A stretch of DNA of 64,000 nt from Pedobacter lusitanus (lineage in GTDB: Bacteria; Bacteroidota; Bacteroidia; Sphingobacteriales; Sphingobacteriaceae): assembly GCF_040026395.1 (NCBI RefSeq), contig NZ_CP157278.1, positions 2,790,001 to 2,854,000 on the forward strand, read 5' to 3'. This document shows positions 11,051 to 30,946 of this stretch, in pieces. Position 1 is the first letter of the stretch; each line of letters starts with the position of its first letter. The notes below the pieces were generated by a model that did no database searches, was not told the origin of the DNA, and saw only the letters and a program-made list of their open reading frames with translations. The position numbers and the translations under genes are program-made.

Positions 11051-11139
11051 GGCCGAATGTTTTATGTCAGTATAACGTTACTTAATCTTCATTTGTTTTG
11101 GTAATTTACACGAAAATGAGGCTATAAACTCAAAATTTA

Positions 11140-11147
11140 TATCTTTG
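11140..11147 (+). promoter_or_regulatory. -7 promoter box TATCTTTG for icd
   Basis: Exact TAnnTTTG match 32 bases upstream of the icd ATG, giving a leader of about 25 bases. Confidence 0.6.
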
Positions 11148-11179
11148 TTTTTTTATAAAGTTAAAATTGAAACCATAAT

Positions 11180-12415: not shown

Positions 12416-12434
12416 TAATAACAATAAGTTTTTT

Positions 12435-12476
12435 AAAGAAAAGCCCTGTTCTTAACCGAACAGGGCTTTTCTTTTT
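12435..12476 (+). terminator. intrinsic terminator of icd
   Basis: A 17-bp perfect stem (AAAGAAAAGCCCTGTTC and its complement) with the 6-base loop TTAACC, ending in a T-rich tract. It lies 20 bases after the icd stop. Confidence 0.92.
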
Positions 12477-12634
12477 ATAAGTCATAAGGTAAAAAAACAT
12501 TTATACTATGCTAATACAAAATATATTTCAACCCAAACATCCTTTTAGCTAACTTGTTAGCTATTAGAAAAACATATTTCAAAGAAACATCACCATTAAA
12601 AACTTAAACACTACGAAAAAATAAATTTATACTG

Positions 12635-13954: not shown

Positions 13955-16012
13955 ATGAAGAAAATAATTACGTTTGGATTACTGGCGCTTACTTTAAACT
14001 GCTTTAGCCAAATTAAACAGGATACTATAAAAAAACTTGATGAGGTCATTATTCGTCCTTATTTTTCTGCACAGCCCTTGTTAAGAACAACAGGGGCTGT
14101 TGCCGTTTTAGATAAAACACTATTGGAGCAGCAGCCAGGCAGTTCATTAGTACCTGCTATGAATACCATCGCCGGCGTTCGTATGGAGGAACGCTCACCT
14201 GGAAGTTATAGATTGTCTATACGTGGTAGTTTATTGCGTTCTCCATTTGGAATCAGGAATGTAAAAATATATTTTGGTGATTTCCCGCTAACTGATGCTG
14301 GTGGAAATAGTTACTTAAACGCACTCGATTTATCCGGAATTGGGAATATCCAAATTCTAAAGGGACCTCAAAGTAGTGTTTACGGTGCAAATTCAGGAGG
14401 AGTTATACTAATCACTCCAAATACTATCAGTACGGATAGCGCTCAGCTTGCCTTAAACCTTACCGGCGGTTCATTTGGCCTGTTCCAGGAAAACCTCAAT
14501 TTAAGCAGGCAATTGAAAAATTACAGTTTCAGCCTTAATCAATCTTATCAGAGAAGTGACGGATATCGCGATCATAGCGGGATGGAACGCAAATATCTGC
14601 AGTTACATCAAAATTGGAATTACTCGCCAAAGGCAAACCTCAGGGCATTATTATTTTATAGTGATCTGCATTATGAAACACCCGGAGGATTAACTGCCGA
14701 TCAGTACGAACTTGACCCCAAATCATCTAGACCAGCAGCTGGCAACATCAGAAGTGCAGCTGAACAACAAGCTGGAATTTACAGCAAAACATTCTATGCA
14801 GGTATCACAAATAACTGGCAATTCAATACCCGGTTCAAACATGTCCTTTCAGTTTTCACTTCCTATACAGACCTCAAAAATCCTTTCCTTACAAACTACG
14901 AACACAGGAAGGAATTCACATTCGGCATTCGCACTTATGTGGAATACTTTAAAAAGCTACAAGACATCACCTGGAGATTCAATATTGGGCTGGAAGCCTC
15001 CAGAACACGCTCCAACACGGTTAATTCAGATAACAATTATGGAATGCCCACTAATTTGCAAGCTTCAGACAAACTAAAAGCGACAACAGATTTTAGTTAT
15101 GCACATTTAAATGTGGATATCTTTCAAAGATTTCTTCTCGAATTATCAGTTAGCGGAAACTTATATCAGGTAGGTTATGAGAGAGTAGCACCCGTAGCTA
15201 TCGCCCCAAAAAACAGGAATTTCGAACTAAGGTTTATGCCAAGAGCAGCCCTTTCTTACTTACTCACAAAAGAGTGGTCTTTACATACTTCTGTCAGCAG
15301 AGGCTACTCTCCACCTACCCTCGCAGAAATCAGAGCTTCCGATAATCAGATAAACATTAATCTGCAGCCAGAAAATGGCTGGAATTACGAAACGGGAGTC
15401 AGGTATCAGAGTGTGAACAAGAGAATAACCCTGGATGTAAATGGGTTTTATTATCAGCTGAAAAATGCAATTGTCAGAAGATTAAATGAAAAAGCTACAG
15501 AGTATTTTATCAATTCAGGAGGTACAAAACAATGGGGAGTGGAAACTTCCATTTCAGCATGGCTGATTAAACCAAACACTTCTGCACCAATAAGAGGTCT
15601 GTCAATCAATAGTGCATACTCCCTGAGTCTCTTTAAATTTGATCATTACATAGACCGGAACTCAGATCTATCCGGCAAATATCTCACTGGTGTACCAAAA
15701 AATGTAATTGTTACCTCAGTAAATTTACAATTACCAAGGGGCTTTTATATTTTTCTTCAGCATAATTATACTGCAAAAATCCCATTGACAGATGCCAATA
15801 CAGAATATGCAAGGGAATACCATCTTGTCCAGAGCAAAATTGGCTGGAAAGGGCTTCGCATTGCAAATATTCCAGTTGAGATTTTTGCCGGCGCAGATAA
15901 CTTACTTAACCAGAAGTACAGTCTGGGTAACGATCTGAATGCTGCCGGTGGAAAATATTTCAATGCTGCCCCCACCCGGAATTATTATGGCGGTCTGAAT
16001 ATTCGTTTCTAA
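13955..16012 (+). CDS. TonB-dependent receptor, PqqU (YncD)-like
   Basis: A 685-residue outer membrane receptor with a short signal peptide (1-18, ending NCFSQ), plug (about 25-150) and barrel ending GGLNIRF. It lacks the N-terminal carboxypeptidase-like domain seen in most Bacteroidota receptors, including the one at 6105. Several segments resemble E. coli PqqU (YncD), the PQQ importer, as I recall its sequence: GYRDHSG in an early barrel strand, a PGGLT segment followed by a Pro/Ala-rich loop, and SRGYSPPTLAEI. The gene starts immediately after the stop of a PQQ-type dehydrogenase gene, which supports PQQ as ligand. The ligand call is inference. Confidence 0.8.
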   Translation: MKKIITFGLLALTLNCFSQIKQDTIKKLDEVIIRPYFSAQPLLRTTGAVAVLDKTLLEQQPGSSLVPAMNTIAGVRMEERSPGSYRLSIRGSLLRSPFGIRNVKIYFGDFPLTDAGGNSYLNALDLSGIGNIQILKGPQSSVYGANSGGVILITPNTISTDSAQLALNLTGGSFGLFQENLNLSRQLKNYSFSLNQSYQRSDGYRDHSGMERKYLQLHQNWNYSPKANLRALLFYSDLHYETPGGLTADQYELDPKSSRPAAGNIRSAAEQQAGIYSKTFYAGITNNWQFNTRFKHVLSVFTSYTDLKNPFLTNYEHRKEFTFGIRTYVEYFKKLQDITWRFNIGLEASRTRSNTVNSDNNYGMPTNLQASDKLKATTDFSYAHLNVDIFQRFLLELSVSGNLYQVGYERVAPVAIAPKNRNFELRFMPRAALSYLLTKEWSLHTSVSRGYSPPTLAEIRASDNQININLQPENGWNYETGVRYQSVNKRITLDVNGFYYQLKNAIVRRLNEKATEYFINSGGTKQWGVETSISAWLIKPNTSAPIRGLSINSAYSLSLFKFDHYIDRNSDLSGKYLTGVPKNVIVTSVNLQLPRGFYIFLQHNYTAKIPLTDANTEYAREYHLVQSKIGWKGLRIANIPVEIFAGADNLLNQKYSLGNDLNAAGGKYFNAAPTRNYYGGLNIRF

Positions 16013-16056
16013 TTTAACTATTCCCTCCAACACCTTTACCCGGAGGGAATAGCTGG

Positions 16057-16407
16057 TTATAACTCATATTTATCAACCACCTCCAGGTTATGGGTTACAA
16101 TTTCAGTCGAATACCGCTGATCACCGTTTTTATCAGTATAAGACTGGGTACTTAACTTACCTTCAATTCTTATAGCAGATCCTTTTTTCACAATGTTTTC
16201 CACCAGTTCCACTTTCTGATTCCAGAAAATCAGATTAAACCACTGGGTTTGATCCACTGCCTCTCCTAAACTATTTTTATAAAACTCATGCACGCCCAGG
16301 CTTAACCTGGCCATTTTTTTTCCTGTGGCAAAACACACAATTACCGGATCTGCAGCTGCATAACCTGTCAAACGGACATTATTTCTTACGCTATTCATAT
16401 TTTCCAT
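16057..16407 (-). CDS. ssb: single-stranded DNA-binding protein, short form
   Basis: A 116-residue OB-fold protein. It shows the SSB pattern SVRNNVRLTGYAAADP, ARLSLGVHEFYKN, QTQWFNLIFWNQKVELVENIVKKG in the middle and IRIEGKLSTQSYTDKNGDQRY toward the end. It stops right after the OB fold (LEVVDKYEL). The Gly/Pro-rich linker and acidic DDDIPF-like tip that recruit partner proteins in canonical SSB are missing. It is therefore probably a secondary SSB, and the genome should carry a full-length one elsewhere. Two in-frame ATGs (16407 and 16398) are possible starts. Confidence 0.88.
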   Translation of the reverse strand: MENMNSVRNNVRLTGYAAADPVIVCFATGKKMARLSLGVHEFYKNSLGEAVDQTQWFNLIFWNQKVELVENIVKKGSAIRIEGKLSTQSYTDKNGDQRYSTEIVTHNLEVVDKYEL

Positions 16408-16544
16408 TTAAAATTTAAAACGACATATTATTAAGCGTAAATATCAAAAACAGCATCTGGTTAATCGTTCATTAAACGTTTATAATCAGCTAAAACAAAA
16501 AAATATTTAACCATAAACTAAGCAGAACAAAGTAATTTAGTGCT

Positions 16545-16931
16545 ATGAAACATTGTCAGGATTGCGGAACTATACTCAGAGGACGAAGCGATAAAAAATT
16601 CTGTAATGATTACTGCAGATGCCATTATAACAATGCGGTCAATAAAGACCGCAATCTGAATTTTAAAGAAATCAATTGTATCCTGAAAAGAAACAATCAT
16701 ATTCTGGAAAAACTAATCCGGCAAAGTATTAATCATACAACAAAATCACTGCTTTCTCTAACCGGTTTCAATTTCACCTTTTTCACGCACCATTTATACG
16801 GTCAAAATGGAGAAATCTGCATCTGTTGCTACAATTATGGTTATATAAAAATAAATAAAGAGGAAATAATCGTAAAACAAGCTAATTATTTATCAGAAGA
16901 CAGGCCAAATATGCCCGTCTTTCACAAATAG
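16545..16931 (+). CDS. zinc-ribbon protein of unknown function
   Basis: A 128-residue protein. The N-terminus carries CQDCGTILRGRSDKKFC and then DYCRCHYNN, a four-cysteine zinc ribbon of a type (DUF2116-like) frequent in small Bacteroidota proteins. A charged helix follows (EINCILKRNNHILEKLIRQ). The C-terminal part has a second Cys pair (ICICCYNYGYIKI), which may form another small metal or redox site. The start at 16545 agrees with the family N-terminus. The function is unknown; nucleic-acid binding is plausible only by analogy. Confidence 0.75.
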   Translation: MKHCQDCGTILRGRSDKKFCNDYCRCHYNNAVNKDRNLNFKEINCILKRNNHILEKLIRQSINHTTKSLLSLTGFNFTFFTHHLYGQNGEICICCYNYGYIKINKEEIIVKQANYLSEDRPNMPVFHK

Positions 16932-17025
16932 TGAAATTCCAATGACAGGTTATTTCAACGTTAATACTTCATTATCGTTTACGTTTAGTATTTTGGCTTA
17001 TCAATCAATTTAGACCTAACCCTCA

Positions 17026-17739
17026 ATGAGTTTTTTAACCGCAGAATGGAGAAAATTAGCTATTGCTAATTATGCCATCGATCAAGAAATCCTACGCCCT
17101 TACCTGCCTGCAGGTACTGAGCTGGACATTTGGAATGATACCTGTTACGTGAGTTTAATAGGCTTTCTTTTTAAAAACACTAAACTATTGGGCTTCAGTG
17201 TTCCTTTTCATGCCAACTTTGAAGAGGTAAACCTGCGTTTTTATGTGAAGTACAAGGATGGAGACACCATTAAACGGGGTGTAGTCTTTATTAAAGAAAT
17301 CGTACCCAAGTTTGCGCTTTCTGTGGTAGCCAATACTGTTTACCATGAACATTATGAAGCTATGCCAATGACCCACCGCTGGTCTGAGACAGAAACCGAA
17401 AGAGAAGTGGAATATAGCTGGCGATGTAAAAATGAGTGGCAGACTTTCTCCGTAAAAGCGAACAAGGCACTGTCAGAAATTCTCCCAGGCAGCGAAGCTG
17501 AATTCATTACCGGACACTACTGGGGTTATACCAGGTGTAATGATACACAAACCAATGAATATGAGGTAAAACACCCTAAATGGGCACAGTATAAAGTAAA
17601 AGATTTTAAAATTGCTGTAGATTTCGCCCATACTTACGGAGCGGAATTTGACTGTCTGAATCGTCAGCAGCCAGTATCAGTTATGCTCGCCGAGGGTTCG
17701 GATATTTCGGTAGAAGGCAAAAAAGGAATTCAGGGCTAA
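17026..17739 (+). CDS. YqjF family protein (DUF2071)
   Basis: A 237-residue soluble protein with the DUF2071 layout: MSFLTAEWRKLAIANYAID at the start, then LRPYLPAGTELDIWNDTCYVSLIGFLF in the first third and EEVNLRFYVKYKDGDTIKRGVVF. The fold is related to acetoacetate decarboxylase. No enzymatic activity is established for this family as far as I know, so none is assigned. The gene is followed after 18 bases by an unrecognised gene in the same direction. Confidence 0.85.
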   Translation: MSFLTAEWRKLAIANYAIDQEILRPYLPAGTELDIWNDTCYVSLIGFLFKNTKLLGFSVPFHANFEEVNLRFYVKYKDGDTIKRGVVFIKEIVPKFALSVVANTVYHEHYEAMPMTHRWSETETEREVEYSWRCKNEWQTFSVKANKALSEILPGSEAEFITGHYWGYTRCNDTQTNEYEVKHPKWAQYKVKDFKIAVDFAHTYGAEFDCLNRQQPVSVMLAEGSDISVEGKKGIQG

Positions 17740-17757
17740 AACCCCTATTTAAATTAT

Positions 17758-18396
17758 ATGATCAATACAACAAATCTTCAATTGTTGCCAGACAACAAAA
17801 AACTACAATCCGCCTGCAAAGCTATGGCTGTACTGGATGCCATACTTTGCCAGGACTGGACTTATCGTTATTACTCTTACAACAGCCAGTGGAGCGAAGG
17901 AGAGGAATTCTTTGAAATGCGAAATGGAGAAGGAGACCAGTTACTTATTCTGTTCAGAAACGAAGGTGCAGTGATTAACGGATATTTTTCTGAGGCAGAA
18001 CAGGGAGAAAAAAACAAACTAACCGATCAGCTGCCGGAAGTTTTTCACGAGTTCATTTTTGGAGAACCCGTAAATTCTGTAGGGACTACATTTTCTGTCT
18101 GGCAATTAAATGATCAGCCATGGACAACTGGTATCCCCTCAGAACATGATGACCATGCTGAAGAACTGCTTAGCCCTCTGGACGCAGAACCCGCCACTTA
18201 TGTGAAATGGGCCTCAGTTTATTTCGAAGGAAGTTATAATGCAGATGGAATTCCACTCGAAACTGTAACGCGTATTTTTAACCAGGAACCATTAACCCGT
18301 GAAATGGTTTCATCAATAATCGGAGAACCTGAAGACTGGGATCAGCTTATAGAAGATCTCATAGAAATTTCATATCCGTATCATATAAATCTGTAA
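17758..18396 (+). CDS. hypothetical protein, acidic
   Basis: A 212-residue soluble, acidic protein with many Trp and Tyr residues (DWTYRYYSYNSQWSEGEEFFEMRNGEGDQ is the region near residues 34-62). It has no signal peptide or membrane segment. Its style suggests a protein-binding or immunity-like alpha/beta domain, but I cannot place it in a family. It follows the YqjF-family gene by 18 bases, so it is probably co-transcribed, and it ends before a separate promoter for the MFS gene. Confidence 0.7.
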   Translation: MINTTNLQLLPDNKKLQSACKAMAVLDAILCQDWTYRYYSYNSQWSEGEEFFEMRNGEGDQLLILFRNEGAVINGYFSEAEQGEKNKLTDQLPEVFHEFIFGEPVNSVGTTFSVWQLNDQPWTTGIPSEHDDHAEELLSPLDAEPATYVKWASVYFEGSYNADGIPLETVTRIFNQEPLTREMVSSIIGEPEDWDQLIEDLIEISYPYHINL

Positions 18397-18421
18397 ATCA
18401 GCTAATCGCCTCAAACAATCT

Positions 18422-18429
18422 TATCTTTG
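18422..18429 (+). promoter_or_regulatory. -7 promoter box TATCTTTG for the MFS gene
   Basis: Exact TAnnTTTG match ending eight bases before the ATG at 18438, so the mRNA is likely leaderless or has a leader of one or two bases. Confidence 0.6.
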
Positions 18430-18437
18430 CGGCCGAT

Positions 18438-19634
18438 ATGAAATTACTAAAGCTAATCACGAATACAAAAATAAGTCTGATCACACTTTGTCTGGGTGGC
18501 ATCAGCCTGGGAATGACAGAATTCATGATGATGGGGGTATTGCCAGATGTAGCCGGCACCCTCAAAATCAATATTCCTACTGCAGGAAATTTAATCTCTA
18601 TATATGCATTAGGTGTAATTATCGGAGCGCCCATCATGGTTGCTGTCCTTGGTAAATATCCGCCTAAAAAAGTACTGATCGGACTGATGATTATTGTTGC
18701 CATTGGTAACATATTGTTCAGTATCGCTCCTACCTACGAACTTCTGCTTGCCGCACGTTTTCTGGTTGGATTACCACATGGTGCCTTTTTCGGTATTGGA
18801 GCAGTTGTTGCCAGTCGGTTAGCCGATCCTGGAAGTGAAGCAAAGTCTGTATCTGTGATGTTTGCGGGTCTGACCATCGCTAATATTATAGGAGTTCCGC
18901 TGGGTACATTTATCGGTCATAATATCAGCTGGAGAATTTCATTTTCTCTGGTTTCTGTAATTGCCCTGATTACCGCAGCAAGTATAAAACTATGGTTACC
19001 CGTATTACCTTCACAGACTGAAACCAAATTCTCAGATACGCTTAAAGTGTTCAAAAAACCAGAGCTCTGGATTATTATAGGAATTTGTGCCATCGGTACA
19101 GGAGGTTTATTTGCCTGGATCAGTTATATCGCACCTCTAATGACAGAAGTTGCACATTTTAACAGTAATATGATTACCCCGATTATGGTCATTGCCGGTG
19201 TTGGAATGGCCGTTGGTAATTTTGTAGGGGGTCGTCTGGCAGACAAGTTTTCACCGTTAAAAACTACGACCTATTTATTAATGGCTATGATTATTACGTT
19301 AATACTTGTCGCACTGCTAAGTCATATTCAAATCGCAGCAATCTTATTAACCTTTATCACCGGTGCACTCGCATTCGCTGTGATTGCCCCTTTACAGATG
19401 CTGATGATCGGTGCAGCAAAAGGAGCCGAAATGCTGGCATCTTCTTCTATGCAGGCCAGTGCAAATACAGGAAATGCCCTTGGAGCTTTTTTAGGAGGAC
19501 TGCCAATTGCAGCTTACGGCTTTACCTCTCCGCAATATGTAGGTGCAGCACTCGCTTTCGGCGGGTTCCTGTTATGCATGCTGTTAACCTCACTATTAAG
19601 TAACCGAACAAAAGTAAAACCTGCTATGGCTTAG
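18438..19634 (+). CDS. MFS transporter, AraJ/DHA1-type exporter
   Basis: A 398-residue inner membrane protein with about 12 hydrophobic segments. The first part, GMTEFMMMGVLPDVAGTL, and the loop KYPPKKVLIGLMI match the drug:H+ antiporter-1 family that includes AraJ and YdhP. ARFLVGLPHGAFFGIGAV is the typical fourth-to-fifth helix motif. Substrates of such exporters (arabinose, drugs, purines) cannot be told from sequence. The gene has its own promoter, and its last 11 bases overlap the end of the convergent lgt gene. Confidence 0.88.
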   Translation: MKLLKLITNTKISLITLCLGGISLGMTEFMMMGVLPDVAGTLKINIPTAGNLISIYALGVIIGAPIMVAVLGKYPPKKVLIGLMIIVAIGNILFSIAPTYELLLAARFLVGLPHGAFFGIGAVVASRLADPGSEAKSVSVMFAGLTIANIIGVPLGTFIGHNISWRISFSLVSVIALITAASIKLWLPVLPSQTETKFSDTLKVFKKPELWIIIGICAIGTGGLFAWISYIAPLMTEVAHFNSNMITPIMVIAGVGMAVGNFVGGRLADKFSPLKTTTYLLMAMIITLILVALLSHIQIAAILLTFITGALAFAVIAPLQMLMIGAAKGAEMLASSSMQASANTGNALGAFLGGLPIAAYGFTSPQYVGAALAFGGFLLCMLLTSLLSNRTKVKPAMA

Positions 19635-20594: not shown

Positions 20595-22502
20595 ATGTTT
20601 AACCGGTTCTCTCTCATCCCAGTATACTTTCTGCTGACAGCAGTATTAATTTTCACTTTTGGCCCGGGCAGTTATGCTCAAAAAGCAGTCGGAATAAATG
20701 ATAGCGTAGATCAGCACATTTTCAATTTCGGCGAGATAGAATGGTTAAAAGACACTCAAAACGATTTAAGTTTTGAAAAGATCAGCAGTAAAAGCTTTGA
20801 TAAGCATTTTAAGCCTAGTTTGAAGAGTACACCACAAACTACAGATCTGCAGGCAACCTACTGGTTCAGAATTAAAATCAAACATAACAGTAAAGCCGGT
20901 AAAAAATACTTACTGGAGTTCTTCGATCAGACCATAGATCATGTAACAGCCTACCTGCCCCTGAAAAACGGTCTTTATGAAGTTAAAGAATTCGGAGATC
21001 AGTTCAGCTTTGATAAACGGGAACTTCATCATAAAAATTTCGAATTGTATATCAACAATAATAATGATGAAACGCAACTTTACTATTTCAAATTTAAATC
21101 ATCACAAATTTCAGATGCAATTATTGTTTTGAGAAGTGTAGACTGGTTTATTTCCTACGCTCTTGATGAATATTTCTACTTCGGAATCTTTTATGGAATG
21201 ATCCTGGTCTTTAGTTTTTACAATCTGATCATGTTTATTGCCATACGGCAAAGGCAATACCTCTACTATGTGCTGTATAATCTAAGTGTCGGCTTTTTTG
21301 AAATGAGTACAGACGGTATTGCATATCAATACTTATGGTCTGCCGCACCTGCATGGAACCAGATTGCCTATGCCTTTGCCTTATATGCGACCAGTGTATT
21401 TGCTTTACTGTTCACCAAAGAGCTTTTACTCGTTAAATCAAAAGCCCCGAAATTAAACCAGTTTATCCTCTATATTATCGGCATACGCACTGCCCTTTTT
21501 CTGTACAGCCTGTTTATAGATCAGTCATTGTTCACTTATAAATTTCTTGAATTCATTCCTTTAGCAGTAGCTTTTTACACCGGTATTTATGTCTATAAGC
21601 AAGGTTATAAACCTGCCCGTTTTTTTGTCTTAGGCTATAGCTTCCTGTTTATAGGTTTTACCTTAAAATTCCTGATTATGCTGGGATTTTCCTGGTTAAA
21701 CTTTGGTGTGATCAGTTATTACAGCCTGAGTTTTTGTTTTGTTCTGGAAATGGTCTTTCTTTCTTTTGCCATTGGCGATAAAGTACGGATTCTGAAAACA
21801 AAGAAAGAAAAAGTACAACGTCAGATGATCCGTCAGATGGCAGAAAATGTGAAACTGAAAGATACCTTAAACCAGCAGTTGGAAACTAAAGTAGAAGAAC
21901 GCACCAAAGAGGTATTTCATAAATCACTAATCATTGAAGCCAAAAATGCAGAACTGCTTGAAGTTAATGACAGACTACAACAACAGGCAGAAGAAATATC
22001 AAGAATGAATATTCTGCTGGAACAGGATAACCAGGAGCTGCAGACTAATGTTGAAAAAGTTACCCGTGACCGTGTCATGTCTGCTGACGTAGATTTTGAA
22101 GAATTCAGCAAAATCTATCCAGACAAAGACAGCTGTAATCTTTTCCTTTCTGAACTGAAATGGAAAGATGGCTACAATTGCCGCAAATGCAAGAATACCC
22201 ACTACTATAATGGACATATTGCCTTTAGCAGACGATGCAGCAAATGTGGATATGAAGAATCAGTTACTGCCTATACCGTCTTTCAAAATACAAGGATCCC
22301 TATAAACAAAGCATTTTACATGATTTTTCTGATCTATTCCAGCAAAGGAAAAATCTCTTCCCATAAACTTGCTGAAATCCTTAATATCCGCCAGAGTACC
22401 TGCTGGACCTATGGCTCCAAGATTAAATTGCTGATGGAAGAAAGAAAAACAGTGCTAAAAAAAGCGAACAAAAATGGATGGAGCCAGCTTGTTCTTGATT
22501 AA
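20595..22502 (+). CDS. 7TMR-DISM receptor fused to an IS1595-type transposase DNA-binding domain; putative membrane-bound regulator
   Basis: A 635-residue protein with an unusual domain order. Residues 1-28 are a signal peptide (ending SYA). About 45-180 is a periplasmic 7TMR-DISMED2-like beta domain (ATYWFRIKI, KKYLLEFFDQTIDHVTAYL). About 193-395 holds seven membrane segments of the 7TMR-DISM type. About 400-495 is a long coiled coil. In the cytoplasm, about 500-620 matches the N-terminal part of IS1595/ISXO2 transposases: FEEFSKIYPDKDSC, a zinc ribbon with Cys529, Cys532, Cys548 and Cys551, TVFQNTRIPINKAF, and an HTH (KISSHKLAEILNIRQSTCW). The catalytic DDE domain is absent. No histidine kinase, GGDEF or LytTR output is present. 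The susC gene starts 321 bases downstream on the same strand, so a role as PUL regulator is a reasonable inference. Confidence 0.85.
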   Translation: MFNRFSLIPVYFLLTAVLIFTFGPGSYAQKAVGINDSVDQHIFNFGEIEWLKDTQNDLSFEKISSKSFDKHFKPSLKSTPQTTDLQATYWFRIKIKHNSKAGKKYLLEFFDQTIDHVTAYLPLKNGLYEVKEFGDQFSFDKRELHHKNFELYINNNNDETQLYYFKFKSSQISDAIIVLRSVDWFISYALDEYFYFGIFYGMILVFSFYNLIMFIAIRQRQYLYYVLYNLSVGFFEMSTDGIAYQYLWSAAPAWNQIAYAFALYATSVFALLFTKELLLVKSKAPKLNQFILYIIGIRTALFLYSLFIDQSLFTYKFLEFIPLAVAFYTGIYVYKQGYKPARFFVLGYSFLFIGFTLKFLIMLGFSWLNFGVISYYSLSFCFVLEMVFLSFAIGDKVRILKTKKEKVQRQMIRQMAENVKLKDTLNQQLETKVEERTKEVFHKSLIIEAKNAELLEVNDRLQQQAEEISRMNILLEQDNQELQTNVEKVTRDRVMSADVDFEEFSKIYPDKDSCNLFLSELKWKDGYNCRKCKNTHYYNGHIAFSRRCSKCGYEESVTAYTVFQNTRIPINKAFYMIFLIYSSKGKISSHKLAEILNIRQSTCWTYGSKIKLLMEERKTVLKKANKNGWSQLVLD

Positions 22503-22596
22503 AAACAGATAGAATCCAGTCTTTCACAGGTGCATTTCTCTTCCCTGGTCATATAATTTAAGATCAGTTAAGCAAAAAAACAAATTAATTTGCCAT

Positions 22597-22612
22597 GGTA
22601 TCAGAGCGTATC
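22597..22612 (+). promoter_or_regulatory. direct repeat, copy 1 of 2; candidate operator
   Basis: GGTATCAGAGCGTATC. It shares 13 of 16 bases with the copy at 22687-22702, and all differences fall in the central three positions. Within each copy a GTAT(C/T) half-site recurs after 10 bp, one helical turn, as expected for a dimer-bound site. Its assignment to the upstream regulator is inference. Confidence 0.45.
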
Positions 22613-22686
22613 GTTTATAGAACGCTACTGAAAGCATATCTTTTCCTATCCATTGTAAATCAGCGATAAACCCCTCCCTCCTTCAC

Positions 22687-22702
22687 GGTATTGAAGCGTA
22701 TC
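22687..22702 (+). promoter_or_regulatory. direct repeat, copy 2 of 2; candidate operator
   Basis: GGTATTGAAGCGTATC, 90 bp downstream of the first copy and 122 bases before the susC ATG, a suitable distance for an activator site upstream of the promoter. Confidence 0.45.
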
Positions 22703-22823
22703 AATATCGACATAACAATCTATATATCAGCTATTTATATAATAATTAATTACCTAGTATCTTATTTTTAACAGATATTAGACCATCAATTAGTAATCAA
22801 ATACAAACCTAAACAAGCAAATC

Positions 22824-25733
22824 ATGATTAAAAATTTTACTCTTTTTCTCATTTGTCTTTTATGTGGAATTTCTGTTGCCATAGCACAGGACATCACTAT
22901 AAAAGGGGAAGTGAAAGATCACCAGGGCCTTCCTTTACCTGGCGTTTCGGTAAAGGTTAAAGGCACTAATAATGGAGTAGTAACAAACGGAACCGGTTCC
23001 TTTGTTTTATCTGCACCAGCAAGCAGTACACTTACTTTTTCCTTTATAGGTTATAAAACAACAGAAGAAGCCGTAACTGGTCGTAAAAAACTGAATGTAA
23101 TCCTGACAGATGATAACCAGCAGCTGAATGAAGTAATTGTGGTTGGTTATGGCACTCAAACCAAAAAAGACCTGACTACAGCCGTAACTTCTATTTCTGC
23201 AAAAGATATTCAGAATCAACCCGTAACCAATGCATTGCAGGCTCTGCAAGGTAAAGCAGCAGGTGTGCAGGTAACTTCTCAGTCAGGTAAACCCGGGGCT
23301 GGAATTACGGTAAGTATCCGTGGTAATACTTCACTGACAGCTTCAAACAGCCCTTTGTATGTCATTAACGGTGTTACATCCAGAGATGCCAGTTTCATTA
23401 ATCCAAACGATATTGAAACGATGACCATATTAAAAGATGCATCAGCCGCCGCCATTTATGGTTCAAGCGGTGCAAACGGAGTTGTACTCATTACGACTAA
23501 AAAAGGTTCTGCAGGTAAAGTTAAAGTTGGTTTTAATGCATTCACCGGTATCTCTAACTTCTGGAGAAAACAAGATGTTTTAAACAGTGACCAGTACATC
23601 GCCCTGATGAAAGATCTTGGCTATACAGAATTTGGCGGCACACAGCATACAGACTGGCAAAAAGAAGCTTTTGGAACCGGACAGCAAAACAGTTATCAAT
23701 TATCGCTTTCCGGCGGAACAAAAGGAGGTCAGTACTACCTGTCTTCAGGTTATCAACAGGATAAAGGTGTTGTTGCACCGGCAAAACTAGACAGATACAG
23801 TTTAAATTTCAACGGTAGTCAGCGTATGACCAGCTGGCTTAAATTTAATGTTACTGCGGCTTTAACTTCCAATAAGTCTGTTGATGTATCAGATAATGCT
23901 GGAATTTCCAAAGGCGGTGTCATACTAGCTGCTTTAACTACACCACCTACTTTAACAATCTTTGAGCCAAATGGTAATTATACACCAGTACCAGGGGGAT
24001 ATGAAAACCCTATTGGTAATGCATTTGGCTCCAGAAATATGAGAAGACAGTTAAAATTCATCGGGGCTTTTGGAGGTGAGATTAATTTCACAAAAGACCT
24101 GGTATTCAAATCTACCATTAGTACCAATGTCAGAAATGAATATTACGACTATACACTCGATCCATATCAAACAGTTTATGGCCGTAACGAAAGAGGTATC
24201 TATAACAATAACAAAACCAACGATCATGTATGGCTCAATGAGAACATACTGAGTTATAATAAAACCATAGGTAAAAATGTTTTCGGAGCTATGGCTGGCT
24301 ATACGGTCCAGGAATCCGACTACACCTATCTCGAATACTCAGCTACCCGTTTTGTAGACCAGAAAGGTCTTCCAATCACTCCCTCTATTGCACCAAAAAT
24401 ACCACAGCGGTCTCAATGGTCCAAACAATCGTATCTGGCAAGAATAAACTATGCTTTTGATGGTAAATACTTACTGAGCTCTAATTTTAGAGCAGACGGA
24501 TCTTCCCGTTTCGCACCTGACCATAAGTTCGGTTATTTTCCTTCTGTTTCCGCAGGATGGAGAATATCAGGAGAAAACTTCTTGAAAGACAGTAAAACAA
24601 TCAATGACTTAAAGATTCGTGGAAGCTGGGGTAAAGTAGGTAACGATGAAGGTATTGGCGATTATGCTTATATGAAGCTGTACCAGATCACTGCGCAAAA
24701 CTCTTATATCCTTGATCAGCCGGCTAATGATCAGTTATCCTGGGAAAAAACTACGCAAACAAATATCGGTCTTGATTTAACCTTATTCAATAACAGGGTA
24801 ACTTTTACAGCCGATGCCTACCTGAAGAAAACCAATGATCTGCTGGTGAATGTTCAGTTACCTACATCATCAGGTTTGGGAACACAAGCCCTTAATGTCG
24901 GATCAATGGAAAATAAAGGTTTAGAATTTGCCCTTTCAACTAAAAACATAGAGAAAAGTAAGTTTACCTGGTCAACAGATTTAAATTTCTCCCTGAACAG
25001 AAATAAAGTAACCAGTTTGGGAAACAGTACAAAATCACTTGACTTTGGTGGAATTTTTGAACGTGATGCGGCGATAAAAGTTGTAGTTGGCCGTCCGCTT
25101 GGAAGTTTTTATGGCTATGTATTCACAGGTGTTGATCCTCAGACCGGTAATGCTACTTATCAGGATACCAATAACAATGGTCAGAGAGATAATGATGACC
25201 GCCAGTTTATCGGGTCGGCACAACCTAAGTTTACGTATGGTGTCAACAATAATTTCACCTATGGAAACTTTGGGCTGTCAGTATTCTTCCAGGGTGTACA
25301 GGGCAACCAGCTATTTAATGCCTCAAAAATTGAGCTGGAAGGAATGTATGATGCTAAAAATCAATCTGCCAATGTCTTAAACAGATGGACAACCCCTGGT
25401 CAGATTACTGATATCCCGAGAGCCCAGCTAACCACATCTTCATTCACAAATACTAATTCACTAACCTCCAGCAGATTTGTTGAAAATGCTTCTTACCTTA
25501 GACTAAAGACTGCAACCCTGTCTTATAACTTTGGGAAAACAGCACTGGGAAAACTAAAAATGGATAAGCTGATGATATTTGCGACAGGATATAACCTCCT
25601 GACTTTCACCAAATATAGCGGCCTGGATCCGGAAGTAAATCGTTATGGCGCCAATGGCCCGGACATGGGAGTAGACTATGGAACCTACCCACAATCAAGA
25701 AGTTTCTTACTAGGTATTAATGTTGGCTTTTAA
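22824..25733 (+). CDS. susC: SusC/RagA family TonB-linked outer membrane transporter
   Basis: A 969-residue outer membrane importer that takes up oligosaccharides together with SusD. Signal peptide 1-22 (ending IAQD), carboxypeptidase-like domain about 23-100 (ITIKGEVKDHQGLPLPGVSV), TonB-box region and plug about 100-230 (NEVIVVGYGTQTKKDLT, SPLYVINGVTSR), then a 22-strand-type barrel ending LGINVGF. No STN domain precedes the plug, so it is not a FecA-like signalling receptor working through an anti-sigma factor. The susD gene follows after 12 bases. Confidence 0.95.
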   Translation: MIKNFTLFLICLLCGISVAIAQDITIKGEVKDHQGLPLPGVSVKVKGTNNGVVTNGTGSFVLSAPASSTLTFSFIGYKTTEEAVTGRKKLNVILTDDNQQLNEVIVVGYGTQTKKDLTTAVTSISAKDIQNQPVTNALQALQGKAAGVQVTSQSGKPGAGITVSIRGNTSLTASNSPLYVINGVTSRDASFINPNDIETMTILKDASAAAIYGSSGANGVVLITTKKGSAGKVKVGFNAFTGISNFWRKQDVLNSDQYIALMKDLGYTEFGGTQHTDWQKEAFGTGQQNSYQLSLSGGTKGGQYYLSSGYQQDKGVVAPAKLDRYSLNFNGSQRMTSWLKFNVTAALTSNKSVDVSDNAGISKGGVILAALTTPPTLTIFEPNGNYTPVPGGYENPIGNAFGSRNMRRQLKFIGAFGGEINFTKDLVFKSTISTNVRNEYYDYTLDPYQTVYGRNERGIYNNNKTNDHVWLNENILSYNKTIGKNVFGAMAGYTVQESDYTYLEYSATRFVDQKGLPITPSIAPKIPQRSQWSKQSYLARINYAFDGKYLLSSNFRADGSSRFAPDHKFGYFPSVSAGWRISGENFLKDSKTINDLKIRGSWGKVGNDEGIGDYAYMKLYQITAQNSYILDQPANDQLSWEKTTQTNIGLDLTLFNNRVTFTADAYLKKTNDLLVNVQLPTSSGLGTQALNVGSMENKGLEFALSTKNIEKSKFTWSTDLNFSLNRNKVTSLGNSTKSLDFGGIFERDAAIKVVVGRPLGSFYGYVFTGVDPQTGNATYQDTNNNGQRDNDDRQFIGSAQPKFTYGVNNNFTYGNFGLSVFFQGVQGNQLFNASKIELEGMYDAKNQSANVLNRWTTPGQITDIPRAQLTTSSFTNTNSLTSSRFVENASYLRLKTATLSYNFGKTALGKLKMDKLMIFATGYNLLTFTKYSGLDPEVNRYGANGPDMGVDYGTYPQSRSFLLGINVGF

Positions 25734-25745
25734 TCTCAGAAAAAA

Positions 25746-27164
25746 ATGAACTTAAAAATATATTCACTTATTGCAGCCGGGGCTTTTCTCTTTACCATTC
25801 AAACAGGTTGTAAAAAAGACTTTCTAAAAAAAGATCCGATTGACAAGATCACCGGAGACATCGTACTGTCTAATGCTGAAGGTGCAAATAAATTAATGAA
25901 AGGTGTCTACGATGGCATGTACAATGATTACCATATCTGGGATTTTATGACCAATGGTGATGTAACTTCTGATAATGCCTATGCCGGTGGTGATAATCCT
26001 GCAAATATTCAGATAGATCTCTTTACAACCAATTCAACCAACGGAAACGTTGACCGTGACTGGACTGCTCTTTATAAAGATATTAAGAATGCAAACGAGA
26101 TTTTGGAAAACATCCCTAAAGTACCAGATCCTTCATTAGATGCCAGTGGCAGAAGAAATCAGATTCTCGGAGAAGCAAGCGGAATACGTGCTTACATGTA
26201 TTTCAACCTGGTACGTTTGTACGGAGCTGTGCCCCTGATCCTGAAAACTCCTTCGAATCTCACGGAGACTCAGCAGCCAAAGGCCACCATAGATCAGCTG
26301 TATGCACAGATTATCAAAGATCTTGAGTTTGCCGCAGCAAATGCCGGTGCTACAGCAGCAAACAAGGGCATTTTTACCAAAGGTGCAGCTAACGGATTAC
26401 TTGCTAAAGTCTATGCATCCAAACCCTCACCAGACTGGGCAAAAGTTCTCCAGTACTGTGATGCAACTATAGCCGGCGGTTATTCCCTATTCTTTGATTT
26501 CAATGGACTATTTGATATCGCCAATAAGAATAATTCAGAATCTATCTGGGAACTGCAATTTCAGGGAAATGGTGGTGAGCATGGTAACTGGATGCCTGGT
26601 ATTATTACAGGAACAGGCTGGAAAAGATTTAACACCCCATCCAACGACCTGGTCAAAGCTTATGACGATGAAGGAGATTTGATCCGGAAAAACTCCAGCA
26701 TTCTGTTTAAAAATGTAAGTACAGACGGCTGGTCAGACAGTTACTGGTCAAAAGCCAATTATCCGTTTATTAATAAATACAGAGCAGATGATAAAAGTGA
26801 TAATTACATTTTACGTCTTGCTGATATTTTACTGTTAAAAGCAGAAGCACTGAATGAGGCGGGAACCTCAGGCTGGGCACAATCAAAAATCATAGTCGAT
26901 CAGATCAGAGCCAGGGTAAAACTTGCTGGTACACCTGCTGCAGATCAGGCAGCTATGCGTCTTGCCCTGGAGAAAGAACGCAGACTGGAGCTTGCGTTTG
27001 AAGGCCACCGCTGGTTCGATCTGTTAAGAACAAACAGAGCTATTACGGTTATGAACGCGCAGCTTGATGGCAAAGGTACCCCGTTAAACTACAATGTTAC
27101 CCCTGCAAAATTACTTTTCCCTATTCCTCAAAAAGAAATAGACAGGAATCCGAATATCAGATAA
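25746..27164 (+). CDS. susD: RagB/SusD family nutrient-binding outer membrane lipoprotein
   Basis: A 472-residue surface lipoprotein that caps the SusC barrel and binds glycans. Signal peptide with lipobox ending IQTGC (Cys22). SusD features are the N-terminal segment LSNAEGANKLMKGVYDGMY, the TPR-like helices with EASGIRAYMYFNLVRLYGAVPL near 140-165, and the C-terminal RADDKSDNYILRLADILLLKAEAL followed by EKERRLELAFEGHRWFDLLR, which is the family signature. Its closeness to susC and the glycosidases defines the PUL. Confidence 0.95.
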   Translation: MNLKIYSLIAAGAFLFTIQTGCKKDFLKKDPIDKITGDIVLSNAEGANKLMKGVYDGMYNDYHIWDFMTNGDVTSDNAYAGGDNPANIQIDLFTTNSTNGNVDRDWTALYKDIKNANEILENIPKVPDPSLDASGRRNQILGEASGIRAYMYFNLVRLYGAVPLILKTPSNLTETQQPKATIDQLYAQIIKDLEFAAANAGATAANKGIFTKGAANGLLAKVYASKPSPDWAKVLQYCDATIAGGYSLFFDFNGLFDIANKNNSESIWELQFQGNGGEHGNWMPGIITGTGWKRFNTPSNDLVKAYDDEGDLIRKNSSILFKNVSTDGWSDSYWSKANYPFINKYRADDKSDNYILRLADILLLKAEALNEAGTSGWAQSKIIVDQIRARVKLAGTPAADQAAMRLALEKERRLELAFEGHRWFDLLRTNRAITVMNAQLDGKGTPLNYNVTPAKLLFPIPQKEIDRNPNIR

Positions 27165-27224: not shown

Positions 27225-29525
27225 ATGTATTTAAAAAAACCACTCTCCGTACTGTTATTGCTGGTCTCTTATGGGATGGCAAATGCCCAGACAAAGAACA
27301 ATGCTAAAGTAGAAAGCCTGCTTCAAAAAATGACTCTGGAAGAAAAGGTAGGTCAAATGGCTCAGATCACACTGGATGTTATCGGCGCCGGTAATGACCG
27401 GTATACCAGTACTGAGCCATTCTCACTAGATCAGCAGGCAATGGAAAAGGCGCTGATCCGGTACAAACTGGGTTCAGTATTAAATACTTCAAATAACAGA
27501 GCAAGGACACCTCAGGTCTGGTATGAAATCATCAGCAAAATCCAGCAAACAGCCATGAAAGGAACCAAAAATGGTATTCCGGTTTTATATGGTATTGATG
27601 CTATTCACGGAGAGACCTATACTGCCGGTGCAACCATGTTCCCGCAGCAAATCGGGCAGGCTGCAACTTTTAACAGAAGCCTTGTGCGTAAAGGAGCTGA
27701 AATTACGGCTTATGAAACCCGTGCAAGTTCTATTCCATGGGCTTTCTCTCCTTTACTGGATCTGGGTGCTGACCCTCGTTTTCCACGTCAGTGGGAAAGT
27801 TTCGGAGAAGATCCTTATTTGGTAAGTCAAATGGGAGTTCAGGCTGTAAAAGGTTTGGAAGGAGAAAATAATGACGTAGCTAACCCTTACCATGTAGCTT
27901 CTTCCATCAAACACTTTTTAGGTTATCAGGTACCAGTTTCAGGAAAGGACAGAACACCGGCATTCATTTCTGATCAGGCACTGAGAGAGTATCACCTGCC
28001 TTCTTTCCGTGCAGCTATTCAGGCTGGCGCAAAAACTATTATGATTAACTCCGGAATCATTAATGGTGTTCCTGTACATGCCAATTATAACCTGCTCACC
28101 AAATTACTAAAAGAAGAACTGGGTTTTAAAGGTTTAGCCGTTACTGACTGGGGAGATATAGAAAATCTTTATAAAAGGGATCATGTAGCCAAAGACAATA
28201 AAGATGCCGTTCGGATTGCAATCAATGCCGGTATTGATATGTCTATGGTAGCCTATAACTATGAGCCTTTCTGTGACGATCTGATTGCCCTGGTTAAAGA
28301 AGGTAAAGTAAAAGAAAGCCGTATTGATGATGCAGTACGAAGAATTCTGCTGGTAAAATATGACCTGGATCTTTTTAATAAACCAACTACCAACCCTAAA
28401 GACTATCCTAAGTTTGGCAGTAAGGAATTTGAGCTGGCCTCTTATCAGGCAGCAGCAGAATCGATTACGCTGTTGAAAAACACAGATCAGACATTACCAT
28501 TGAATAAATCAATGAAAATCCTGGTTACCGGCCCCAATGCCAATTCAATGAGAACATTGAATGGTGCATGGACATATTCATGGCAGGGAGAAAAGGTTGA
28601 AGAATTTGCTGCAAAATACAATACTATTGTAAAAGCTCTTGAACTTAAGGCCGGTAAACAAAACGTAACTTATGTACCGGGCGTGAGCTATAAAATGGAT
28701 GGCAGATACTTTGAAGAATATGCAGACCAGCTGGATGCAGCAATTGCAGCAGCAAAAGAAGCAGATGTGGTTGTATTATGTTTAGGTGAAAACTCTTATA
28801 CAGAAACCCCTGGTAATTTAAGTGACCTTTATCTTTCAGATCTTCAGACTGAGCTTGCACAAAAACTTGCTGCAACTGGCAAAAAGATCATCCTGGTATT
28901 AAATGAAGGCAGGCCACGTATCATTTCTAAATTTGAGCAAAAGATGAGTGCTGTTGTACAAAGTTACTTACCTGGTAATTTTGGAGGTGATGCCATTGCT
29001 GATGTTCTTTTAGGTACAGTGAATCCATCGGGTAAATTGCCTTATACCTATCCGCAATTCCCAAATGCACTATTTACCTATTACCATAAACCATCAGAAT
29101 CACGTTCAACTACAGAAGGTGTTTATAACTATGATGCAGATTACAATCCTCAGTATGTTTTCGGCTTTGGTCTAAGCTATACTACTTTTAAATACAGTCC
29201 GGTTAAACTAAGCACTGCTACTTTGAAAAAAGGAGAAACTTTAACAGTTTCTGCAGATGTAACCAATACTGGTAAAGTTGCAGGTAAAGAAAGTGTACTG
29301 CTGTTTACATCAGACCTGGTCGCTACATTGGTTAGTCCTGATGTAAAACGCTTAAGAGGTTTTGAGAAAATTGATCTTAAAGCTGGTGAAACTAAAACAG
29401 TAACCTTTAAAATTACGGCAGATGACTTAGGGTTTATTAACCCTGAAGGTCAGAAAATAACAGAAGACGGAGACTTTACCATACAAATAGCCGATCAGAA
29501 AATCAATTTCACGTACAATCAGTAA
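27225..29525 (+). CDS. bglX: GH3 beta-glucosidase
   Basis: A 766-residue periplasmic enzyme (signal peptide 1-21, ending ANAQ) that releases glucose from the non-reducing end of beta-glucans. GH3 domains in order: TIM barrel about 25-380 with YGIDAIHGE, RFPRQWESFGEDP, SIKHFLGYQ and the nucleophile motif AVTDWGD (Asp308); alpha/beta sandwich about 395-620 with VLCLGENSYTETPG; and a C-terminal fibronectin III-like domain from about 660. The length agrees with BglX-type enzymes. The linkage it cuts cannot be fixed from sequence. It lies 60 bases after susD and two bases before the GH30 gene. Confidence 0.93.
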   Translation: MYLKKPLSVLLLLVSYGMANAQTKNNAKVESLLQKMTLEEKVGQMAQITLDVIGAGNDRYTSTEPFSLDQQAMEKALIRYKLGSVLNTSNNRARTPQVWYEIISKIQQTAMKGTKNGIPVLYGIDAIHGETYTAGATMFPQQIGQAATFNRSLVRKGAEITAYETRASSIPWAFSPLLDLGADPRFPRQWESFGEDPYLVSQMGVQAVKGLEGENNDVANPYHVASSIKHFLGYQVPVSGKDRTPAFISDQALREYHLPSFRAAIQAGAKTIMINSGIINGVPVHANYNLLTKLLKEELGFKGLAVTDWGDIENLYKRDHVAKDNKDAVRIAINAGIDMSMVAYNYEPFCDDLIALVKEGKVKESRIDDAVRRILLVKYDLDLFNKPTTNPKDYPKFGSKEFELASYQAAAESITLLKNTDQTLPLNKSMKILVTGPNANSMRTLNGAWTYSWQGEKVEEFAAKYNTIVKALELKAGKQNVTYVPGVSYKMDGRYFEEYADQLDAAIAAAKEADVVVLCLGENSYTETPGNLSDLYLSDLQTELAQKLAATGKKIILVLNEGRPRIISKFEQKMSAVVQSYLPGNFGGDAIADVLLGTVNPSGKLPYTYPQFPNALFTYYHKPSESRSTTEGVYNYDADYNPQYVFGFGLSYTTFKYSPVKLSTATLKKGETLTVSADVTNTGKVAGKESVLLFTSDLVATLVSPDVKRLRGFEKIDLKAGETKTVTFKITADDLGFINPEGQKITEDGDFTIQIADQKINFTYNQ

Positions 29526-29527
29526 TC

Positions 29528-30946
29528 ATGAAGAAGAATATTTTATTTGCTTTTGCTATTGCACTATCGGCATGTTCAGCAAAAAGAGATGCTACGGGAC
29601 CTGCAAGGTCTGCAGCATCTAATGGCGGGGTGAAATACTGGATCACCAAAGGCGACAAAACAGCGCTGCTGGAAGAGCAGCCTGCTGTTTTGAAATTTGG
29701 CACAGCTCAAGCCACTAATGCAATAATTACTGTTGATGACACGCAGAAATTCCAGACTATTGATGGTTTCGGCTATACTTTAACCGGTGGCAGCGCAAGT
29801 TTAATTAATGCATTGGATGAAAAAGCCAAAGATACATTACTACAGGAGCTATTCTCTACCAAAAAAAACAGTATTGGTGTAAGTTATCTGAGAATCAGTA
29901 TCGGAGGTTCAGATCTGAGTGCAGAAACCTTTACCTACAATGAATTGCCAGCAGGACAGACAGACATTAATCAGGATAAATTCTCTATGTCTAAAGAAAT
30001 GACAGACCTGGTGCCGGTATTGAAAAGAATTCTGGCTATTAATCCTGATTTGAAAATTTTAGGTTCTCCATGGACTGCTCCTACCTGGATGAAAACCAAT
30101 CACAGCTTTAAAGGCGGAAGTCTGAAACCGGAATATTATGAATCTTATGCGAAATACCTGGTTAAATATGTCTATGCAATGAAAACTCAGGGAATCACAA
30201 TTGATGCCATTACAATTCAGAATGAGCCTTTACATCCTGGAAATGTGCCAAGCATGTATATGGAAGCAAAAGATCAGGCAATATTTATCAAAACGGCTTT
30301 AGGCCCGGTGTTTAAATCAGCAGGAGTCAAAACAAAAATTATCATTTATGATCATAATGCAGACCGCCCGGATTATCCGATAACTATTCTGGACGACCCG
30401 CAGGCAAACCAATATGCAGATGGCTCAGCTTTCCATTTATATGGCGGCCAGATCACTGCCTTATCTAAAGTTCACGAAGCTCATCCGGATAAGAACCTTT
30501 ACTTTACAGAACAATGGGTTGGCGGCCCCGGAAAATTCGATGAAGATTTAAAGTGGCATGTTTCTACTTTAATCATCGGAGCAACCCGCAATTGGAGCAG
30601 AAATGTTTTGGAGTGGAATTTAGCTGCCGACCCGTTATACAGACCACATACTGCAGGTGGCTGTACAACTTGCTTAGGAGCGATTACAATAGCCCCTGAG
30701 GTCACAAGAAATGTTGCTTACTATATCATTGGTCATGCGTCAAAATTTGTAAGACCGGGATCATACAGAATCGGTTCCAATATTACTGAGGGCTTGCAGA
30801 ACGTTGCTTTCAGAACTCCTGACGGAAAGACTGCGCTGATTGTTGTGAATGAAAACCCCGCTGAAAAAAACTTTAATATCAATTATAATGGAAAAGAAGT
30901 GAGTACTTCGCTGGCTGGTGGTGCCGTTGCTACTTATGTCTGGTAG
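29528..30946 (+). CDS. GH30 glycoside hydrolase lipoprotein (glucosylceramidase / beta-1,6-glucanase type)
   Basis: A 472-residue lipoprotein (lipobox ALSAC, Cys16), probably surface-exposed or periplasmic. GH30 features are QTIDGFGYTLTGGSA at 76-90, SPWTAPTWMKTN, the acid/base motif TIQNEP with Glu233, the nucleophile in YFTEQW with Glu328, and a small C-terminal beta domain after about residue 395. GH30 subfamily 3 enzymes cut beta-1,6-glucan, and other GH30 members act on glucosylceramide or xylan. The neighbouring GH3 and the lack of xylanase-type genes favour a glucan. It is the last gene of the PUL, closed by the terminator at 30971-31007. Confidence 0.9.
   Translation: MKKNILFAFAIALSACSAKRDATGPARSAASNGGVKYWITKGDKTALLEEQPAVLKFGTAQATNAIITVDDTQKFQTIDGFGYTLTGGSASLINALDEKAKDTLLQELFSTKKNSIGVSYLRISIGGSDLSAETFTYNELPAGQTDINQDKFSMSKEMTDLVPVLKRILAINPDLKILGSPWTAPTWMKTNHSFKGGSLKPEYYESYAKYLVKYVYAMKTQGITIDAITIQNEPLHPGNVPSMYMEAKDQAIFIKTALGPVFKSAGVKTKIIIYDHNADRPDYPITILDDPQANQYADGSAFHLYGGQITALSKVHEAHPDKNLYFTEQWVGGPGKFDEDLKWHVSTLIIGATRNWSRNVLEWNLAADPLYRPHTAGGCTTCLGAITIAPEVTRNVAYYIIGHASKFVRPGSYRIGSNITEGLQNVAFRTPDGKTALIVVNENPAEKNFNINYNGKEVSTSLAGGAVATYVW

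Follow-up and report, generated by a model that had tools for sequence, protein, structure and literature searches.

The regulation of polysaccharide utilization loci (PULs) in Bacteroidetes is usually framed as the work of SusR, hybrid two-component systems or extracytoplasmic function (ECF) sigma/anti-sigma systems (as presented in PMC3878776). In the parts of PMC3878776 and PMC5481569 that concern them, SusR-like proteins (BT3705; SusR3, which is BT3309) appear as inner-membrane one-component regulators of SusCD genes with a putative helix-turn-helix (HTH) near the C-terminus and a predicted direct-repeat operator, of long spacer, upstream of the sus operon; a GH30_3/GH3 locus is placed under BT3309. 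Hybrid two-component and ECF systems likewise have a membrane sensor that controls PUL transcription (PMC3878776, PMC10766802, in the parts on these systems). Here, we analysed a stretch of 64,000 nucleotides of the Pedobacter lusitanus genome (6.05 Mb; contig NZ_CP157278.1, positions 2,790,001 to 2,854,000, forward strand; hereafter the window), in which one gene upstream of susC encodes a 7TMR-DISM receptor joined to the zinc ribbon and HTH of an IS1595-type transposase. The product is very probably a membrane one-component transcription factor that reads paired sites and activates the susC-susD-GH3-GH30 genes. From the DNA alone, the protein had been proposed to be a one-component regulator that is bound to the membrane and controls the adjacent sus genes (hereafter the sequence-only reading); this proposal now has computational support from the homology to transposases, the grouping of the fused domains in one clade, the linkage and the paired sites, to which the architecture, the loss of the DDE domain, the co-occurrence of gene and sites and the promoter distance are added.

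Architecture of the regulator

20595..22502, + strand: regulator gene, 635 amino acids from an ATG start; 7TMR-DISM receptor joined to IS1595-type zinc ribbon and HTH
20733..21125, + strand: 7TMR-DISMED2, periplasmic domain, residues 47-177 (Pfam PF07696, E 3e-26)
21168..21782, + strand: 7TMR-DISM_7TM, membrane domain, residues 192-396 (Pfam PF07695, E 2e-42)
21789..22085, + strand: predicted cytoplasmic coiled coil, residues 399-497 (weakly heptad-like, no Pro or Gly)
22122..22253, + strand: IS1595-type zinc ribbon, Cys529/532/548/551, residues 510-553 (Pfam PF12760, alignments, AlphaFold2 model)
22287..22448, + strand: HTH with recognition helix IRQSTCW, residues 565-618 (NCBIfam NF033547 positions 1-55; helices of the model)

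The periplasmic domain and the 7TMR-DISM receptor of the sequence-only reading were borne out by the Pfam matches given above; the DISMED2 family profile also matched three solved sensor domains, including that of RetS (2xbz), with E values of 3e-5 to 4e-5. As for its seven membrane helices, the Pfam match spans the whole 7TM model, but a crude hydropathy scan gave one N-terminal hydrophobic segment and five windows over threshold in the 7TM region, not seven. The coiled coil of about 95 residues is kept as a prediction for residues 399-497 (heptad signal, p 0.03). The assignment of the C-terminus to an IS1595 zinc ribbon and HTH without the DDE domain was upheld. Zn_ribbon_IS1595 was matched with an E value of 1e-5 in the whole protein (Pfam) and of 1e-6 (28.7 bits; cut-off, 25.4 bits) when the C-terminal 141 amino acids were scanned alone, and no other zinc ribbon in Pfam, and thus no non-DNA-binding one, outscored it. 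NF033547 (IS1595 transposase, 215 positions) was matched over the HTH only, with an E value of 7e-7 and 29 bits on the C-terminus alone (the cut-off of this model for whole proteins is 75). DDE_Tnp_IS1595 (PF12762) was not matched in the regulator up to E 10, nor in five other fused members, and histidine kinase, GGDEF, receiver, AraC and sigma domains were not matched in the regulator up to E 10 (Pfam). The four cysteines were invariant in alignments of 19 and 51 rows (window protein included in both), and in the AlphaFold2 model of residues 480-635 the block means of the confidence score (pLDDT) were 89-96 over the zinc ribbon and the three-helix HTH, while residues 1-17 of this fragment were under 50.

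7TMR-DISM receptors (RetS and others) share the DISMED2 and 7TM domains and typically have a kinase, GGDEF or phosphodiesterase output, whereas the output of the present protein would be a DNA-binding domain. IS1595-family (ISXO2-like) transposases share the four-Cys zinc ribbon, the HTH and an RQKTCW-like recognition helix, but the regulator lacks the DDE nuclease and lies behind a receptor and beside PULs. It differs from the hybrid two-component and ECF systems in having no kinase, receiver, AraC or sigma domain (Pfam). The likeness to ToxR/CadC drawn in the sequence-only reading had to be given up, because Trans_reg_C (winged helix) was not matched in Pfam and the membrane part is a 7TM domain rather than a single transmembrane segment; SusR is the nearer functional analogue, of which the predicted operator spacing is 67/77 bp in the relevant part of PMC3878776, in contrast to the 90-93 bp predicted for the present clade. 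In Proteobacteria there is a precedent for a 7TMR-DISM with a DNA-binding output, since the ChiS-family DNA-binding domain occurs with 7TMR-DISM in some architectures (according to the part of PMC8092284 on architectures), but this domain is of another family and in another phylum. No description of a 7TMR-DISM/IS1595 fusion or of a 7TMR PUL regulator was found in the PMC full-text literature (subscription papers and preprints lay outside this scope), and the protein apparently represents an undescribed family of its own, a membrane one-component regulator whose parts are combined in a new way.

A candidate paired operator and its promoter geometry

22597..22613, + strand: candidate operator site 1, GGTATCAGAGCGTATCG (motif match and pair scan)
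22687..22703, + strand: candidate operator site 2, GGTATTGAAGCGTATCA, starting 90 bp after site 1 (motif match and pair scan)
22725..22730, + strand: TATCAG, an accessory element conserved in the site profile, downstream of site 2

The candidate operator upstream of susC consists of two copies of GGTAnnnAAGCGTATCA in direct orientation at a spacing of 90-93 bp; in the window it lies in the 321-bp gap between the regulator gene and susC (22503-22823). For the analysis, 80 named loci (the best of at least 555 relatives) and the window were used, 81 loci in total, a few of which end early at contig ends; as these loci are related to each other, they are not independent trials. Matches to GGTATnnAAGCGTATCA (at least 11 of 15 positions) were found at least twice in 57 and at least once in 58 of the 59 regulator-susC gaps, 122 in forward versus 3 in reverse orientation, whereas 20 mononucleotide shuffles gave 2.0 on average. 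The best pairs of direct repeats, sought at a spacing of 86-97 bp (58 loci), were spaced by 92 bp (25 loci), 90 bp (15), 91 bp (12) or 93 bp (6). A matrix trained on 57 of the 81 loci gave a pair in 69, of which the next gene was susC in 60 (L137 was counted here by position because of an overlap between the site and the called open reading frame (ORF)) and GH30 in 9 (L134-L136, L139, L142, L145-L147, L151); no matrix pair was found in 704 kb of shuffled DNA. The 22597/22687 pair was the only matrix pair in the window and, among the matches listed for the whole genome, the only same-strand pair within 200 bp, while single sites were as common in this genome as those of a reversed control (67 versus 73).

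The motif was then fixed for the following tests. In operons of which the regulator is the last gene, the pair preceded susC, at 11-14 kb from the regulator, in all five readable cases (scores at a lowered threshold: 28.9, 28.7, 22.3, 15.1 and 13.5). Of 121 genomes from the same family, 35 bear the regulator, and a strict pair pattern occurred once each in 17 of these but in none of the other 86 (Fisher p 2e-11, without correction for relatedness); the reversed pattern occurred in none of the 121. Loci from the family search, some of which share species with the training set, had the pair within 1.5 kb in 18 of 30 cases. The pair was absent from all 20 GH30 loci that lack the regulator, among them the second GH30 of the window's own genome (13 of the 20 show susC plus upstream DNA). 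In genome G084 a SusCD-GH16-GH3 run that is preceded by the pair lies about 18 kb away from the regulator. In genome G148 (locus L321, contig C20) it lies about 100 bp upstream of a lone GH30 gene on a contig other than that of the sole regulator found, an apparent case of control in trans. Thus, the paired site follows the target genes, even with the regulator about 11-18 kb away or on another contig.

The position of the promoter was assessed with the Bacteroidota -7 box, of which the consensus is TAnnTTT[G/A]. Counted from the start of site 2, the box began 98-100 bp downstream in 37 of 57 loci and 87-89 bp downstream in another 15, that is, in 52 loci at either of two distances that differ by one helical turn; a lesser cluster was at offset 58 (7 loci), and the background was 0.09 per offset, clusters excluded. 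Between 80 and 106 bp of site 2 no -7 box was found in five of the 57 loci, including the window, the promoter of which (22767-22792) is without TAnnTTT[G/A] at the offsets conserved in the 52 loci. In the distant family f47, 18 matches had the box at 99-100 bp from the corresponding site. Sites that lie upstream of the promoter at a constant distance and helical phase would suit an activator.

The recognition helix RQSTC was found in 76 of the 81 regulator ORFs (named loci and window), and RQGTCW, RRATCW and RxNTxW helices were also present when all fused domains were pooled; six examples from family f15 were xxNT[V/L]W and six from f47 RQGTCW. The core AAG[CT]GTAT was kept in 19 of 30 downstream regions of f47 (0.4 in shuffled sequences), in contrast to 1 of 30 in f15 (shuffled, 0.6). 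Pairs resembling TGTTTTTTAAGCG were found in 10 of 30 regions of f15, nine at 64-66 bp (shuffled, 0.2), and in 14 of 30 regions of f47, twelve at 74-78 bp, a result which is exploratory because the consensus was read off the same regions.

These data bear on another reading, in which the zinc ribbon and HTH form a protein-binding adaptor and the paired sites belong to another co-conserved regulator. Transposase zinc ribbons can mediate protein contacts, and the best structural matches were weak. However, RQSTC is kept as described and RQKTCW is seen in three of four aligned transposases, the core is kept in f47 and not in f15 while the pooled helix types vary (RQ/RRxTxW and RxNTxW, not matched to loci), and where the gene is missing the strict pair (86 genomes) and the matrix pair (20 GH30 loci) are missing as well. 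We consider the adaptor quite unlikely and prefer the direct reading of the sites by the regulator. For this reading we infer the binding, the activation, the ligand and the stoichiometry as follows. In the periplasm, DISMED2 would sense a product released by degradation of the target glycan (for this locus, a beta-1,6-gluco-oligosaccharide is probable), and the signal would reach the zinc ribbon and HTH by way of the seven-helix domain and a coiled-coil dimer. The membrane-held dimer (or two dimers) would then bind both 17-bp sites of the direct repeat (spacing, 90-93 bp), which lie about 75 bp upstream of the -33 element, and would recruit the polymerase, by which the susC-susD-GH3-GH30 operon would be switched on. 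The system is suited to asking which protein reads the sites and by what means a dimer anchored in the membrane can contact two of them at a distance of about 90 bp; every locus is given a predicted DNA site, and the sites predict co-regulated loci.

Transposase origin and distribution of the family

Free-standing relatives of about 300 amino acids aligned to the C-terminus of the regulator with up to 44% identity (E 1e-31). All four that were scanned matched both the zinc ribbon model (L066 under the cut-off) and DDE_Tnp_IS1595 (L272 under the Pfam cut-off). The fused proteins have a conserved W-x-x-L-x-L tail after the HTH, which appears to sit about where the transposases have VEVDE. In the tree of 70 domains (the fused ones were picked below 70% identity from 179), a branch with support of 100/96 separated 43 fused domains and L263 from 26 transposases. 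L263 (784-1269, - strand) is a free-standing zinc ribbon/HTH protein of 162 amino acids nested within the fused clade, either a fragment or a DNA-binding domain that became soluble secondarily. The grouping of the fused domains in one clade fits a single capture with a long history since, and the sequences are consistent with the zinc ribbon and HTH having been captured once from an IS1595-family transposase, with loss of DDE. The family is a clear case of a signalling receptor that captured a transposase DNA-binding domain.

The C-terminus was matched in 44 of the 121 genomes of the same family, and an ORF of at least 450 amino acids in 35 of them (identity, 52-100%). A second search with a distant member gave 97 proteins, all listed with a 7TM domain; the candidates were limited to 0.55-1.75 of the query length, so that free transposases could not appear. 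In a sample of the class, 25 of 346 genomes matched at E <= 1e-15, some through transposases only, and in the family samples 63 of 118 genomes matched in f15 and 46 of 120 in f47, with ORFs mostly longer than 600 amino acids. The named holders are Pedobacter, Mucilaginibacter, Chitinophaga, Dyadobacter, Siphonobacter, Albibacterium, Roseivirga, Fulvivirga, Ekhidna, Echinicola, Flammeovirga, Persicobacter and Aureibacter. The regulator is, by its sequence, a member of an old, large family of Bacteroidia; the survey that the sequence-only reading had called for thus revealed a large Bacteroidota family and not a rare oddity. Regulator genes in tandem were seen at L140 (7974-11891), G144 (C150) and G135 (C127). 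The members are labelled in databases as 'transposase', 'chromosome partitioning protein ParA', 'sensor histidine kinase LadS' or '7TM diverse intracellular signaling domain-containing protein', labels under which a further class of PUL regulator, spread across many environmental genera, has apparently been overlooked.

The label 'transposase' of some members might speak for a transposase fragment fused to a 7TMR protein by recent insertion or mis-assembly and without function. The long-ORF matches in 35 of 121 genomes and the 97 proteins with a 7TM domain indicate that the fusion is neither chance nor a recent insertion, and the homologues, of fused architecture across many genomes, are not the intact transposases that the sequence-only reading had allowed for. 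With one architecture across many genera, invariant cysteines, a conserved tail, one clade and long-ORF rows free of internal stops (save two rows with one TAA each), we give this explanation next to no chance. Instead, the family is probably an undescribed class of PUL regulators of Bacteroidia that goes back to a single capture, by a 7TMR-DISM receptor, of the DNA-binding half of an IS1595 transposase. Its members would read paired operators from the membrane for many glycans (beta-glucans, sulfated polysaccharides and others), and the operators would have changed in sequence, and in spacing by roughly one helical turn at a time (about 65, 76 and 87-94 bp), with the divergence of the recognition helix.

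Gene neighbourhood, probable substrate and relation to SusR

22824..25733, + strand: susC (TonB-dependent receptor), predicted target (Pfam)
25746..27164, + strand: susD, predicted target operon (Pfam)
27225..29525, + strand: GH3 enzyme (Pfam; nearest solved relative, beta-glucosidase BoGH3B)
29528..30946, + strand: GH30 enzyme (Pfam; nearest solved relative, 5ngk)

Neighbouring genes were grouped by BLAST, and representatives of the clusters were scanned with Pfam. Within about 8 kb of the regulator, a GH30-cluster gene was found in 79 of the 81 loci (all except L109 and L141), SusD in 65 and SusC in 60; susC was the next same-strand gene in 59 of the 80 loci with a recovered regulator ORF (that of L123 was unrecovered). 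In 20 further loci, among which distant families and the paralogue in the same genome were deliberately represented, the neighbours were mostly SusCD with GH3, GH5, GH16 or GH30. The neighbours were SusCD, GH3 and GH16 in Persicobacter, and sulfatase, GH97, GH43 and BglX genes in Aureibacter. In Flammeovirga, a ribokinase and a sugar transporter adjoin the regulator, and SusCD is 5 kb away on the other strand. The paralogue, with a C-terminus 63-64% identical, stands at the end of a locus (L173, C1:1016000-1035500, 10172-19501) that combines SusCD with a PL14 lyase, a thioredoxin/rhodanese protein and two sulfatases; the PL14 gene is preceded by a pair-like site with a spacing of 87. The best PDB match of the GH30 enzyme of the window was 5ngk (293 bits; next, 171), which we take to be BT3312. 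BT3312 is described as a Bacteroides GH30_3 endo-beta-1,6-glucanase in the relevant part of PMC5481569. The substrate of the window locus is therefore probably a beta-1,6-glucan, such as that of the fungal-wall type.

This locus kind raises the question of kinship with SusR, that is, whether the regulator is a divergent member of the SusR-like family and not a new family. As far as PMC3878776 and PMC5481569 deal with them, SusR-like regulators are membrane proteins with a putative C-terminal HTH and predicted direct-repeat operators at 67 or 77 bp (PMC3878776), and SusR3 (BT3309) governs the Bacteroides GH30_3/GH3 beta-1,6-glucan locus. The gene position, the locus kind and the geometry (about 65 and 76 bp in the distant families here) are alike, and with filters off the family profiles gave weak scores with SusR-position proteins (coiled coil, at most 12 bits; HTH, at most 7 bits), points that speak against a separate family. 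On the other side, the SusR-position proteins, which were presumed to be SusR-type and served as stand-ins for BT3705 and BT3309, occupied this place in four of the 20 GH30 loci that lack the regulator and consist of TPR, a transmembrane segment, a coiled coil, DUF6377 and HTH (PF19904, E <= 1.4e-78 in five proteins). They (L386, L387, L388, L392) gave no DISMED2, 7TM or zinc-ribbon match and share no Pfam domain with the regulator, and when 396 genomes of the class were searched with a profile, no ORF of 450-600 amino acids with the domain was among the matches listed (up to E about 1e-9; at most nine candidates scored per genome). Membership in the SusR-like family is thus unlikely, and the regulator is treated here as a family of its own.

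In two others of these 20 GH30 loci, beta-propeller (Reg_prop/Y_Y_Y) proteins with a C-terminal HTH-like region, encoded before susC (L385, 16800-19901; L390, 333-3383), have no kinase or receiver and possibly represent another type of one-component PUL regulator. With DUF6377-HTH or beta-propeller proteins in the same place, different lineages seem to have placed different membrane regulators over the same kind of locus.

A multihaem cytochrome-like gene (L128, 5282-6535; cluster c24) recurred in eight loci, by GH30 and GH5 genes upstream of the regulator in Mucilaginibacter. In the window, an ORF of 128 amino acids (16545-16931) has a treble-clef-like N-terminus and a weak match to DUF2116 (E 0.0097).
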